A stretch of DNA of 64,000 nucleotides from Parvibaculum sp. Its GTDB lineage: Bacteria > Pseudomonadota > Alphaproteobacteria > Parvibaculales > Parvibaculaceae. The DNA lies in contig JAUSMV010000030.1 of NCBI GenBank assembly GCA_030645235.1, positions 186,001 to 250,000 on the forward strand, written 5' to 3'. Under the pieces are notes generated by a model. That model did not search any database. It had not been told where the DNA came from and worked only from the letters and a program-made list of their open reading frames with translations. Below, piece by piece: positions 10,068 through 48,216 of this stretch (within the stretch, counting starts at the first letter, position 1; the number at the start of each line of letters is the position of its first letter). The position numbers were made by a program, and so were the translations under genes.

Positions 10068-11984
10068 ATGTTGCACATAAACGATCTCACCTTCCGTATG
10101 GAGGGCCGCCTGCTCCTCGACCATGTTACCGCCGCTTTGCCGCCGGGGCAGAAGATTGGCTTTGTCGGCCGCAACGGCACAGGCAAATCCACGCTTTTAA
10201 AGGTCATAACGGGCGAATACATCACGGAAACCGGGGGCGTGAGCTACCCGAAGAACTGGCGCGTCGGCATGGTCCGCCAAGAGGTTCTGGCCGGGCCCAC
10301 CACCCTTCTGGACACGGTTCTGGCCGCCGACCTGGAACGCGCTTCGCTGCTCACCGAGGCCGAAACGGCGACTGATCCGAACCGGATTGCCGAGATTCAC
10401 ACCCGATTGTCCGACATGGGCGCACATGCCGCACCCGCGCGGGCGGCGGAAATTCTGGCCGGTCTCGGGTTTGACGAGGTCGCACAAGCCAAACCCTGCT
10501 CCGATTTCTCGGGTGGCTGGCGTATGCGCGTGGCGCTGGCGGCGGTTCTGTTCTCGGAACCGGACCTGCTGCTGCTCGACGAACCGACCAACTATCTCGA
10601 CCTGGAAGGCACAATCTGGCTTGAGGATTACCTCAAATCTTACCCCTATACCGTCCTCATCGTCAGCCATGACCGCGATCTGTTGAACAACGTCGCGGAA
10701 GGCATTCTGCATCTGGAGCACAAGAAGCTCACCTTCTATAGCGGCAACTATGACCGCTTCGACCGCACGCGGCGCGAAAAGCTGATGCTGCAAATGTCGA
10801 TGAAGAAGAAGCAGGAAGACGCACGCCGCCATATGGAGGAGTTCGTCGAACGCTTCAAGGCGAAGGCCTCAAAGGCCCGTCAGGCGCAAAGCCGCATGAA
10901 GGCGCTGGCCAAGATGGAACCGATTGCGGACATCTTAAACGAGCGCGTGATGCCGTTCCGCTTCCCTGCCCCCGACAAGCCGCTTGCCTCACCGATCATC
11001 CGGCTTGAGCACGCGAGCGTCGGCTATGATCCCGAAAAGCCGGTGCTGACGAAGCTTGATCTGCGCATTGATCAGGACGACCGCATCGCCCTTCTCGGCG
11101 CGAATGGCAACGGCAAATCGACTTTTGCCAAATTGCTTTGCGACCGTTTGCAGGTGTCGGCGGGCAACAAATACGATTCAAAGAAGCTGCGCATCGCTTA
11201 TTTCGCGCAGCATCAGCTCGACGAACTGGGCATGGCCGAAACGCCCTATGAACATTTTCGCACTCTGGTCCCGACCGCCACGCAGGCGCAGACACGCGCT
11301 ATTGCGGGCTCTTATGGCTTCGGTGCGGACAAGGCGGACACGCCGGTTGAAAAGCTGTCGGGCGGCGAGAAGGCGCGTCTCCTGTTTGCTATCGCGACCT
11401 ATCACAAGCCGCATATGATCATTCTCGACGAACCGACAAACCATCTGGACGTCGATAGTCGCGAAGCGCTCGTCATGGCGATCAACGATTATGACGGCGC
11501 CTTCATCCTTATCAGCCACGATCGCCATCTGGTTGAGACCTGCGCGGATCGTCTCTGGCTTGTCGCTGACGGCACTGTGTCGCCTTACGATGGCGATCTT
11601 GACGATTATCGCAAATGGTTGCTCGATCCCGCGCGTCGTATTCGTCCGATGGCACCGGATGAAGAAGGTTCGGAAGATTCCGAACCCGCCGCGCCGCGTC
11701 CATCGAACGACAAGAAGGAAGCCCGTCGCATTGCGGCCCAGAAGCGTGAGCAGAATGCACCTCTGAAAAAGAAGGCGCAGGCGCTCGAAAAGGAAGTCGA
11801 AAAACTACAGGCCGACATAGCAAAGCTCGATGCAAAACTGGCAGATGGCGCGGCGCTGGAAGGCAAAGCGGACGAAGCCTCAAAGCTCGCGAAGGCACGT
11901 GCCGACACTCTACGCGCCTTGGCGGCAGCCGAGGATAAGTGGCTTGAAGCGGTCGCGGCTTACGATGAAGCGATGGCGAGCTAG
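10068..11984 (+). CDS. ABC-F family ATPase (ribosome-associated type)
   Basis: 638-residue soluble protein with two ABC ATPase domains and no membrane segments. Domain 1: Walker A GRNGTGKST near 34, signature FSGGWRMRVALA near 149, Walker B LLLLDEPTNYLDLE near 170. A charged linker (about 235-285) corresponds to the P-site interaction motif of translational ABC-F factors. Domain 2: Walker A GANGNGKST near 346, LSGGEKARLLFA near 430, Walker B IILDEPTNHLD near 453. The C-terminus from about 540 is a charged coiled coil, as in Uup/YheS-type members. Likely acts on stalled or initiating ribosomes. The repeat directly behind its stop carries a fragment of a different ABC-F gene. Confidence 0.9.
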   Translation: MLHINDLTFRMEGRLLLDHVTAALPPGQKIGFVGRNGTGKSTLLKVITGEYITETGGVSYPKNWRVGMVRQEVLAGPTTLLDTVLAADLERASLLTEAETATDPNRIAEIHTRLSDMGAHAAPARAAEILAGLGFDEVAQAKPCSDFSGGWRMRVALAAVLFSEPDLLLLDEPTNYLDLEGTIWLEDYLKSYPYTVLIVSHDRDLLNNVAEGILHLEHKKLTFYSGNYDRFDRTRREKLMLQMSMKKKQEDARRHMEEFVERFKAKASKARQAQSRMKALAKMEPIADILNERVMPFRFPAPDKPLASPIIRLEHASVGYDPEKPVLTKLDLRIDQDDRIALLGANGNGKSTFAKLLCDRLQVSAGNKYDSKKLRIAYFAQHQLDELGMAETPYEHFRTLVPTATQAQTRAIAGSYGFGADKADTPVEKLSGGEKARLLFAIATYHKPHMIILDEPTNHLDVDSREALVMAINDYDGAFILISHDRHLVETCADRLWLVADGTVSPYDGDLDDYRKWLLDPARRIRPMAPDEEGSEDSEPAAPRPSNDKKEARRIAAQKREQNAPLKKKAQALEKEVEKLQADIAKLDAKLADGAALEGKADEASKLAKARADTLRALAAAEDKWLEAVAAYDEAMAS

Positions 11985-11991
11985 CTCGAAA

Positions 11992-12137
11992 CAGTCAGCA
12001 TTTCTTGCAAGAGATCGAGTGTTTCCATGCAGAGATTGCTAGTCGGTTCGTCGAGTGTCTGATTTTTGGGCGCGACAAGAAATCCCCTGATGGGGATTTC
12101 TTTGTTTTGGGCGAAAATAAAGTTATGCGCGGGGTGA
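11992..12137 (-). repeat. 146-bp structured intergenic repeat, copy A (ABC-F Walker-B fossil plus hairpin)
   Basis: Starts 7 bp behind the ABC-F stop. Aligns without gaps over 146 bp to 46546-46691. Bases 11992-12057 match copy B at 64 of 66 positions; read on the minus strand they give LDEPTSNLCMETLDLLQEML, an ABC-F Walker B/D-loop segment in which the usual N and D (DEPTNxLD) are S and C. A perfect 11-bp stem (12077-12087 with 12092-12102, loop TGAT) follows, then a conserved AAAATAAAGTTATG block at 12114-12127. It lies between convergent genes and encodes no intact protein. Confidence 0.85.
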
Positions 12138-12200
12138 TCGGGCAACACACGGGCAAATCGGGTGTTTTGTTTATCCCCCGCTTTTGTGAGTCCCCCCACC

Positions 12201-12293
12201 CAAAAAATCCAAGACGATTTTTTGACCTCCCCACAAGGGGGAGGTGAAAGTAAGGCAGAAGACCCTCACCCAACCCTCTCCCAGAGGGAGAGG
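12201..12293. repeat. Cluster of three palindromes in the ABC-F/MBL gap
   Basis: Three successive inverted repeats: CAAAAAATC (12201-12209) with GATTTTTTG (12216-12224); ACCTCCCC (12225-12232) with GGGGAGGT (12238-12245); CCTCTCCC (12275-12282) with GGGAGAGG (12286-12293). The last resembles the palindrome near 7806-7823. The whole gap 11985-12310 (326 bp) is made of this cluster plus repeat copy A; I see no gene in it. The first stem could act as a terminator for the minus-strand MBL gene. Confidence 0.6.
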
Positions 12294-12310
12294 ACCAAGA
12301 AGAATAAGAA

Positions 12311-13231
12311 TTATTCAAAACCCTTCGAGAGCACGCCTTCACTCAGGAGCGATGCCATCACCATGCCGTCGTGACCCGGCACGATGGCGATGTTCGGTTC
12401 TGCCACGTCAAGCTCCGACAGCGCTTTTAACTGACCGAAGACGGCTTTGCGATCTTCGTACAAAAAGAACTGTGTCACGAGACGCGCGCGTTCGCGCAGG
12501 ACTTCGATATTGCGAAAGTGCCATGCGACGTCGCCGAGGAAGAGGACTTCGCGGCCATCGGCTTTGCGCACATAGACCATCTGGCTGCCCGGCGAATGGC
12601 CCGGCGATTTGATGAGCACGACGCCTGGTGCAATGGCTTTGTATTTGTCATAGACAACCGGCGTGAGGAGCTTGCTGTTTTCGGCGCTCAAGGCCGCGAC
12701 GCCTGAGCGTTCGGGATGGTCGATCTGTTCCTGCGACAAAGCAACGACCGGCGCGATCTGCGCAAAGTCGGGATAGGCTGAAATGCCGCCCATATGGTCC
12801 ATATGCTCATGTGTGATGATGACAAAGCGTGCGGCACCGAGCGCCTTGCTCATGCGGGCATAGGCATCCGCGTCAAAGCCGCCAAGATTTTCGCCGCCCT
12901 GCTCTTTGCTCAATGCCGTGTCGATGATGCCGGTTTTGCCATCGGGAAAAACGAGCTGATAGGAGAAGACAGGCATTGCTGTTTGCTTCCAACCGTCGCC
13001 CGCAACAACGGCGGTCGAGGGAAAGGAGAAAGCCCCGATCTGTTCGACCTGAATTTTTGCAGGCTTGTTACCCGGCATTTCATCGGCGAGGCGGCGCACT
13101 TCATTGATGTCGAGCTCAAAGGCCGCGTCAGACGGCATGTGACTTTCAACGACGAACCAATAGTAAGCGCCGCCGCCTATGGCGACGAGAACAGCAAGCA
13201 CGACCAGGATATTTCGTTTCCAGACTGACAA
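12311..13231 (-). CDS. MBL-fold metallo-hydrolase, membrane-anchored
   Basis: Metallo-beta-lactamase-fold hydrolase of about 306 residues with an N-terminal membrane anchor or uncleaved signal (ILVVLAVLVAIGGGAYYWFVV). The metal site is shown by THEHMDHMGG (HxHxDH) in the middle, SPGHSPGSQMV with a third His, a bridging Asp in LFLGDVAWH, and VPGHDG near the end. The layout is like lactonase or N-acyl homoserine lactonase-type MBL proteins, but the substrate is unknown. I chose TTG 13229-13231, which has GGGGGA 7 bases upstream; TTG at 13246 is in frame but has no such site. The stop lies at the edge of a repeat-rich gap. Confidence 0.75.
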   Translation of the reverse strand: MSVWKRNILVVLAVLVAIGGGAYYWFVVESHMPSDAAFELDINEVRRLADEMPGNKPAKIQVEQIGAFSFPSTAVVAGDGWKQTAMPVFSYQLVFPDGKTGIIDTALSKEQGGENLGGFDADAYARMSKALGAARFVIITHEHMDHMGGISAYPDFAQIAPVVALSQEQIDHPERSGVAALSAENSKLLTPVVYDKYKAIAPGVVLIKSPGHSPGSQMVYVRKADGREVLFLGDVAWHFRNIEVLRERARLVTQFFLYEDRKAVFGQLKALSELDVAEPNIAIVPGHDGMVMASLLSEGVLSKGFE

Positions 13232-13250
13232 TTTCGCATCCCCCAATTAA

Positions 13251-46533: not shown

Positions 46534-46545
46534 ACAGGCTCTGAG

Positions 46546-46691
46546 CAGTCAGAATTTCTTGCAAGAGATCGAGTGTTTCCATGCAGAGATCGCTAGTCGG
46601 TTCGTCGAGTGATTGAGCGGCGGGCGCGGAGGCCTATCCCCGGGTGGGGATAGAGATGTTATCCCGCAAAATAAAGTTATGCCCGTGGTGA
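46546..46691 (-). repeat. 146-bp structured intergenic repeat, copy B
   Basis: Aligns without gaps to 11992-12137. Bases 46546-46611 match copy A at 64 of 66 positions and encode LDEPTSDLCMETLDLLQEIL on the minus strand. The hairpin CTATCCCC (46634-46641) with GGGGATAG (46646-46653) has loop GGGT; compared with copy A the core ATCCCC/GGGGAT is kept and two adjacent base pairs have changed on both sides. AAAATAAAGTTATG is at 46668-46681. As with copy A, it follows a plus-strand stop and lies between convergent genes. A palindromic-repeat-like stretch (GCTTCGCTGTGCTCGCAATG, near 46700) follows. Confidence 0.85.
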
Positions 46692-46742
46692 AGGTGGACC
46701 GCTTCGCTGTGCTCGCAATGCGGGAGTAAGGAAAAGACGTGG

Positions 46743-46765
46743 ATGGCCGGATCAAGTCCGGCCAT
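46743..46765. repeat. REP-like palindrome with TCAAG loop
   Basis: ATGGCCGGA (46743-46751) pairs with TCCGGCCAT (46757-46765), loop TCAAG. Same loop and related flanks as the palindromes at 14882-14955. It is 27 bp behind the der stop and may help end its transcript. The gap 46534-46791 holds only repeats. Confidence 0.65.
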
Positions 46766-46791
46766 GACGGGGTTTGCAAGCGCAACCCCCG

Positions 46792-48216
46792 TCAGTTGTT
46801 CCGCTTCTTCTTGTCGGCGAAGGGGTTTTTCCGTGCACGGAGGAAAAGGCGGATCGGGACGGCCGGAAGGTCGAAGGCTTCGCGCAGGCCGTTGACCAGA
46901 TAGCGCTTGTAGGCGGTCGGGACTTCTTCGGCGCGGCTCGAAAAGACCGCAAAGGTCGGCGGGCGGGTTTTGACCTGCGCCATGTATTTCAGATTGATCG
47001 CGCGACCCTTCGCGGCAGGCGGCGGATGGCGCGTGATGGCGTCTTCGAGCCAGCGGTTGAGCTTGGCTGTCGAGACGCGCGCGTTCCACAATGTATGCAC
47101 ACGATCAATCGCGGGCATCAGCTTTTCGGTGCCGCGTCCGGTCAGCGCCGAAAGTGTAACGATGGGCAGACCGCGGACCTGCGGAAGGAGACGTTCGAGT
47201 TCTTCTTTCAACCCGCGCAATTTTTCCTGCGGGTTTTCAACCGTGTCCCATTTGTTGACGACGATGATCATGGCGCGGCCTTCGCGCTCGACCAAATCGG
47301 CGATGTGCAAATCCTGACGCTCGAAGGGGATGCTGGCATCCAATGTGATCGCCACGACTTCGGCAAAGCGGATGGCGCGCAATGTGTCGGCGACCGAGAG
47401 CTTCTCGAGTTTGTGGATCACGCGGGCGCGGCGGCGCATGCCGGCTGTGTCGAAAAGTTTGACGCGGCGACCGTTCCACATCCACTCAACGCCGATGGCG
47501 TCGCGCGTGATGCCGGCTTCCGGTCCCGTCATCATACGGTCTTCGCCGAGCAGCAAATTGACGAGTGTGGACTTGCCGACATTGGGGCGACCGACAACGG
47601 CGATGCGCAGGGGCGCGGTGCGATCCGGCTCCCAGGGCGCGTCGGGATCGAACGGGCCTTCAAACACTTCGCCATCGGCTTCGGCATCTTCGCGGGCCTG
47701 ACGCGCATCTTCGGCATCAATCGCATCGGCGTAGGGCTGCAATTCCTGATAGAGCGCGGAGAGGCCTTCGCCATGTTCAGCCGAGAGCGGGATCGGCGCA
47801 CCGAGGCCCAACTCGTAAGCTTCCATGCGGCCCGCCTCGCCTGCCCCGCCTTCGCATTTATTGGCGGCGAGGATCACGGGTGTCGGGAACTTGCGCAAAA
47901 TTTGCGCAAAGCGTTTGTCGAGCGGCGTCACACCGGCGCGGGCATCCATGAGCAGGAGGCAGACGTCGGCATCCAGAATGGCGGCGTCGGTCTGGCGGCG
48001 CATACGCGCTTCGAGACTTTCGTCATTTGCCTCTTCGAGACCGGCTGTGTCGATGACGGTGAATGTGAGGTCGCCAAGATGCGCCTCACCCTCGCGGCGG
48101 TCACGCGTGACGCCGGGTGTGTCGTCCACAAGCGCCAGCTTTTTGCCGACGAGACGATTGAACAATGTGGACTTGCCGACATTCGGCCGTCCCACAATGG
48201 CGACCTTGAATGGCAC
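46792..48216 (-). CDS. der: Ribosome biogenesis GTPase Der
   Basis: Two-GTPase-domain protein needed for 50S assembly. 474 residues from GTG 48216 with GAGG 7-8 bases upstream. G-domain 1: [14 protein letters not shown] near 8, DTPGVT, and NKCE. G-domain 2: [14 protein letters not shown] near 210, [11 protein letters not shown], and VNKWDTV. C-terminal KH-like domain ends in [15 protein letters not shown]. Cotranscribed with bamB (50 bp upstream). Confidence 0.97.

Follow-up and report, generated by a model that had tools for sequence, protein, structure and literature searches.

What kind of sequence is a 146-bp intergenic stretch that occurs twice in one Parvibaculum contig and reads on its minus strand as a piece of an ABC-F protein? 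The window analysed here, a stretch of 64,000 nucleotides, corresponds to C58:186001-250000 of G000, a genome of 3.83 Mb. Within it, positions 11992-12137 (copy A) align with positions 46546-46691 (copy B) without a gap, with 115 of 146 positions identical overall and 64 of 66 in the near-identical first part, as originally predicted. Their minus-strand readings are LDEPTSNLCMETLDLLQEMLT and LDEPTSDLCMETLDLLQEILT, respectively, i.e. LDEPTS(N/D)LCMETLDLLQE, and the earlier observation that the normal N and D of the Walker B/D-loop are S and C is right for these two copies. Each copy lies between a plus-strand ORF, whose stop codon it follows, and a minus-strand ORF. The features of the two sites, in window coordinates and with R1 denoting the covariance model described below, are as follows.

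10068..11984, plus strand: ABC-F gene adjoining site A, not the source; its stop lies 7 bp before stretch A
11980..12104 (G000:C58:197980-198104), plus strand: full covariance-model match of site A, R1 positions 1-125, 122.7 bits
12001..12038, plus strand: 38-nt core of site A, antisense of the Uup Walker B/D-loop, from core-pattern and covariance-model search
12082..12097, plus strand: companion palindrome of site A, ATCCCCTGATGGGGAT, 72 bp after core index 0 (12010)
12114..12131, plus strand: 3' module of site A, AAAATAAAGTTATGCGCG
12172..12178, plus strand: distal TATCCCC half-site of site A, found by eye
12311-13246, minus strand: ORF after site A
46534..46658 (G000:C58:232534-232658), plus strand: full covariance-model match of site B, R1 positions 1-125, 124.4 bits
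46555..46592, plus strand: 38-nt core of site B, from core-pattern and covariance-model search
46636..46651, plus strand: companion palindrome of site B, ATCCCCGGGTGGGGAT
46668..46685, plus strand: 3' module of site B, AAAATAAAGTTATGCCCG
46792..48216, minus strand: GTPase Der gene, convergent neighbour of site B

By eye, further intergenic repeats adjoin the sites in the window (12180-12300 and 46700-46780) and at many other site loci; their types are CCCTCACCC...CTCTCCC, CCTCCCC...GGGGAGG and the palindrome GGCCGGATCAAGTCCGGCCATGACG.

Counted by nucleotide and covariance-model searches, as the original prediction had proposed, the site is present about 99 times in G000, which rules out that copies A and B are two decayed ABC-F genes. 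A core pattern allowing up to three mismatches gave 67 matches in the whole genome and, read backwards, none, excluding a chance origin; a second loop form, AGAGATTCGAGG, gave 25 more. The other patterns that we reversed as controls likewise had no match in G000. The covariance model R1, built from 50 aligned copies (alignment A1), found 95 places at E ≤ 0.001, uup included, and other searches supplied four further sites (C58:1101403, C55:344630, C58:1660679 and C58:347221). The 99 entries that we list consist of 94 core matches, with two tandem pairs counted twice, and five others. An exact 26-mer search of a genome-contig database, from which the window's own genome was possibly excluded, returned no named carrier. 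Two exact viral scans and a phage search gave no match, and the sole plasmid match was an ABC-F gene of a Rhizobium plasmid; a phage, plasmid or viral origin is not supported.

The sites share a composite anatomy. In ungapped columns of the 94 cores, a near-invariant block spans -9 to about +29, with weaker conservation up to about +45. The arm takes the form CAG (Cys) in 63 cores and TCG (Asp) in 18, and the 5-nt loop (A1 columns 37-41) is CGAGT in 55 of 94 and TCGAG in 24 of 94, forms that differ by a shift; all nine combinations of the three main loop forms with the three main arm forms are present. Exactly 72 bp after core index 0, 54 of the 99 entries carry the palindrome ATCCYC-N4-GGGGAT, for which the background is 0.0008 per 160 nt. 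More GRGGATA/TATCCYC half-sites lie upstream, mainly near -56, and also downstream, and tandem copies with a 21-bp period occur at some sites. In a scan of periods from 6 to 16 bp, GRGGATA offsets beyond +90 in G000 fitted best to 10.5 bp (R 0.63, n=29; 0.54 on distinct offsets). For the whole set of G000 half-sites, less those in the two main clusters, a period of 10.6 bp fitted best (R 0.36, n=81), and a jitter null equalled the observed R at 10.5 in 0.1% of cases; the strength of the phasing is only rough because the copies are related by descent. The periodicity of TATCCYC alone was weaker (R 0.30, n=41), and no 10.5-bp phasing was visible in the sister species G003 (R 0.21, n=47).

The source of the core is G000's own uup gene, whose stretch C58:541801-541865 encodes LDEPTNDLDMETLDLLQEMLTDY; the core is antisense to the stretch coding for this ABC-F protein's second Walker B/D-loop. 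All 24 outgroup uup genes shown encode the same peptide, with E or D at one position, and we therefore take uup to be the founder. The ABC-F gene that adjoins site A scores best with a different ABC-F model from that of the source gene, in agreement with the earlier statement that it is not the source. A tree of 26 uup rows groups G000 with G003 with support of 100/100, and of the 26 shown these two alone carry, by eye, the stretch AATGCCCGGGCGAGGATAAG at +72 in uup. The nearest named Uup record, from the Parvibaculum MAG JAUSLL010000118.1, is 89% identical in amino acids, and the uup stretch of this MAG equals that of G003. The proposal that an ABC-F fragment has been multiplied therefore stands insofar as a Uup coding fragment is the founder of about 99 sites, most of them outside genes; its other half, that a small mobile or structured element simply multiplied, is not supported.

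Among the genus genomes that we searched, dispersed sites are confined to two sister species. At E ≤ 0.001, R1 gave one match each, always uup, in 24 of the 25 genus genomes besides G000 and G003, and no match in the remaining one, G005 (71% complete). The sister species G003 has a word of its own, by eye TTTCCTGTCNNNTTTCGAG(TG/CC)TTTCCATGTCGAGGGT, and a model of this word (R2) gave 39 matches in G003 at E ≤ 0.05, a few of them from one tandem place, and 69 in G000. Across six other genomes R2 gave one match in five and two in G019, the second of these weak (E 0.02). Six 16-mers occur at four or more places in 396 kb of G003, all of them the motif, and none does so in 400 kb of the outgroup G006. 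A degenerate site in G003 (C8 near 104000) lies at the place orthologous to one G000 site (L038), and weak sites are therefore probably under-counted in G003. By eye, a second 3' module resembling GGGGAAATGTATTTATTTTGCGGGATA is common to L078 and L068 of G000 and L321, L328, L330 and L331 of G003.

A structured or antisense RNA family is one candidate for what the sites are, given that their plus strand is antisense to uup mRNA and that the core folds as a hairpin. In the 50 aligned G000 copies the proposed core pairs are formed in 99.9% of cells and the changes are G-U compatible in all cells but one, as such a family would have it. None of the 17 pairs, however, shows changes on both sides in the G000 copies, and the fold is not kept in G003, where pairing falls to 69.9% of cells and one of the pairs is disrupted in 13 of 13 cases. 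Together, these two results rule against a structured RNA family and against the structured element of the original prediction. Sites inside genes occur on either strand, and Rfam at the gathering score gave no match within the window, both of which also speak against an RNA, and we consider this reading most improbable.

The sites are spread across the genome in a regular manner. The 99 entries comprise 50 in gaps between convergent genes, 17 and 12 in co-oriented gaps, 6 in divergent gaps and 14 that were flagged as lying in genes (four of them weakly). At a density of about one per 35 kb, their spacing in G000, to which this result applies, is more even than random, with a coefficient of variation of 0.63 versus ~0.97 and none of 10,000 simulations reaching it (98 sites on four contigs; the set includes C58:1436493, the second addB site, and excludes C22:50071, which is alone on its contig). 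A single gap of less than 5 kb was observed versus 12.8 expected. Orientations look mixed by eye along C58, and we rejected replication-strand polarity; a thinner zone near parB was likewise rejected, since 14 of the 49 C58 sites in its last 713 kb is not a firm departure. One site lies just downstream of the ParB_N match at G000:C58:1677494-1678498.

At least 10 G000 sites fall within genes; they occupy both strands and several frames. The genes, named by NCBIfam with some scores below the curated cut-off, are those for Uup, TlyA, PrmC, a QueD-like protein, an SDR, an RlmB/SpoU-like methyltransferase, AddB (two sites), RimP (in an N-terminal extension), ExbD and a PBP1C-like protein; AsmA-like and saccharopine-dehydrogenase-like (SacDH) genes, named by eye, also hold sites. 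Of the 14 flagged entries L167, L091, L010 and L059 are not counted here owing to low codon scores, and the flagging missed AddB and RimP, the PBP1C-like gene being outside its list. In addB (L069, G000:C58:1436400-1438200) the two sites are separated by about 0.8 kb and differ in frame, and one is a 21-bp tandem; that addB encodes part of a recombination nuclease is possibly a coincidence. When we compared six genes with four to six same-genus orthologues each, length was unchanged in four (QueD, SDR, SacDH and PrmC), whose sites arose without insertion, by codon-compatible change, contrary to a small mobile element. The two others are longer: TlyA by 7 codons (21 bp), solely in G000, and SpoU by 11 in G000 and 7 in G003. 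The G003 word stands at the same codons in QueD, SpoU and PrmC, is rearranged in SDR and weak in SacDH, and is absent from the codons of the G000 site in the TlyA of G003. In TlyA, G000 reads CTATCCTCCGGTGGGGATAG where its relatives encode other residues. By eye, the motif yields where a conserved residue would be broken, as at the DH of QueD, which we read from these alignments as pressure that would act on single changes.

We found that sites stay in place while their sequence changes. Of 37 G003 sites, 29 pair with a G000 site on the basis of conserved neighbours at a similar distance, one of them weakly, leaving 28 solid pairs; the QueD, SpoU, SacDH and SDR sites of G003 came from an orthologue search, which makes their orthology automatic, and without them the fair count is 24 of 33. 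The 37 sites exclude the ExbD site L327, which is cut by a contig end, and some of the 39 R2 matches, and the weak pair dropped from the 29 is L323-L052, which has one weak hit. A column-by-column comparison of 21 solid pairs out of the 28 gave 62.3% identity for orthologous cores versus 62.0% for non-orthologous ones, while core identity is 89.7% within G000 and 73.3% within G003; the pairs were chosen by the start of the G003 word, and G003 counts at those columns are therefore biased. Words in G003 are looser than those in G000. Given shared loci and orthologous cores that are no more alike than others, the sites stay put and the word is replaced in concert, a pattern at odds with a small mobile or structured element. 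Together with the even spacing in G000, this behaviour of a ~40-letter word, at largely shared loci and changed in step per species, suggests a chromosome-wide signal and not ordinary repeat DNA.

A serious rival for the nature of this signal is that the sites organise the chromosome, each serving as an anchor for a nucleoid, segregation or division-control protein every ~35 kb and being held by selection for binding, as with Noc, SlmA and matS. This idea would call for what is seen, namely some 100 sites at even spacing, on either strand, in or between genes and in many cases at loci common to both species; a multimeric binder of double-stranded DNA is suggested in G000 by the 21-bp repeats and the 10.5-bp phasing. 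The sites of Noc, SlmA and matS number from tens to about a hundred over a chromosome and function on double-stranded DNA, and they resemble the present sites in number and chromosome-wide spread. They are, however, short palindromes of 12-16 bp, whereas the site here is long, asymmetric and composite, with a different word in each sister species, and concerted change between sisters is hard to obtain if every site is under selection for binding. There is also a single ParB_N match in G000, and so no ParB-family paralogue of the Noc type besides ParB itself, compared with four matches in G003. We regard this alternative as somewhat unlikely.

Concerted change and same-length change within genes could also come from templated patching, in which an abundant short single-stranded or reverse-transcribed copy of the core overwrites partly similar sites in place. 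This would account for in-gene sites of unaltered length and for concerted dialects that resemble each species' own uup, but it leaves the even spacing and the phased half-sites unexplained, and by eye in-gene words deviate from the consensus at positions where the protein requires different residues. We think such patching very unlikely.

A further alternative is a MITE-like or REP-like mobile repeat that carries the uup fragment, was inserted between genes and was then homogenised by gene conversion, with in-gene sites as conversion patches. Here the original prediction of a mobile element keeps some ground, as an insertional part is present: in 6 of 12 comparisons there is a short, matching but site-free gap in G003 or G006 and G000 is longer by roughly 200-350 bp, while three show a site or degenerate site in G003 and the other three are unreadable. 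Several intergenic units have, by eye, CGGGGATA-like inverted ends, with flanks too diverged to show a target-site duplication, and the presence of all nine loop and arm combinations is what recombination would give. In looking inserted and, by eye, in their short inverted ends these units resemble MITEs, but no autonomous partner is known here, many loci are shared and the sequence is replaced in concert. REP sequences mobilised by RAYT (Y1) proteins are mostly intergenic, palindromic and of high copy number, as are the present sites, which differ in their same-length occurrences within genes and in their concerted change at shared loci. The Y1 family PF01797, the sole transposase family searched, was absent from G000 and G003 and present in one of 27 genus genomes (G019), which speaks against a mobile element and led us to reject a RAYT-mobilised repeat. 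Rickettsia palindromic elements, too, occur both between and within genes, as in-frame insertions, whereas four of the six genes compared here keep their length. With shared loci (28 of 37, or 24 of 33 on the fair count) and the even spacing in G000 also against it, a homogenised mobile repeat seems unlikely to us.

Sites inside genes on either strand, the phasing and the 21-bp units point to double-stranded DNA that is read by a protein. The reading that we put forward, tentatively and as less than probable, is that the sites are signals on double-stranded DNA, founded by uup and spread by a drive like that of uptake sequences. Each site is a near-invariant core of ~38 bp derived from a piece of uup, often flanked by GGGGATA half-sites, and a putative sequence-specific protein or complex would read it on the DNA, whatever the transcription. 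A genome-wide drive would make all sites in a genome converge on its current word, permissive stretches within genes included; in the simplest form of such a drive, DNA that bears sites may be transferred or taken up preferentially and then recombine. The sites would then act much as DNA-uptake sequences do in Neisseriaceae and Pasteurellaceae. An uptake-type drive fits because of the concerted change at shared loci, the dialects, the in-gene sites and the even spacing; against it, several intergenic copies look like insertions of ~200-350 bp, no phasing is visible in G003, and G003 cores are only 73% alike.

Known uptake sequences are ~10-12 nt long, extended to ~30, and number more than 1,000 copies. 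The present sites resemble DUS and USS in being a genome-wide over-represented word, found between and inside genes, with species dialects (G000 versus G003), but differ in having a core of ~38 bp rather than 10-12 nt, about 99 sites in G000 and 39 matches in G003 rather than more than 1,000, a gene fragment as founder and, in G000, phased companion half-sites. Because length and number do not fit, we do not file the sites under DUS or USS. A published account of DUS (PMC3630211) describes dialects, sites within genes in permissive regions and intergenic pairs that form stem-loops. Among the literature records listed, none described the present site family. It is possible, and we say so with reserve, that a long, composite and helically phased site that derives from a housekeeping-gene fragment, occupies evenly spaced and largely shared loci, drifts in word between species yet stays unified within each genome and rewrites codons of conserved genes constitutes a new class of signal, whose reader could recognise self by homology or a guide and not by a fixed protein code; uptake, if shown, would place the sites better with a known kind.

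If true, this reading would mean that a DNA word derived from a gene fragment can come to hold about 100 loci at even spacing and change in concert, conserved genes included. Either an independent molecular drive of the uptake-sequence type would then exist among Alphaproteobacteria, or the sites would represent a chromosome-organising kind that is new. With two sister species that differ in dialect, direct tests can address the drive, the reader protein and what the in-gene sites cost.
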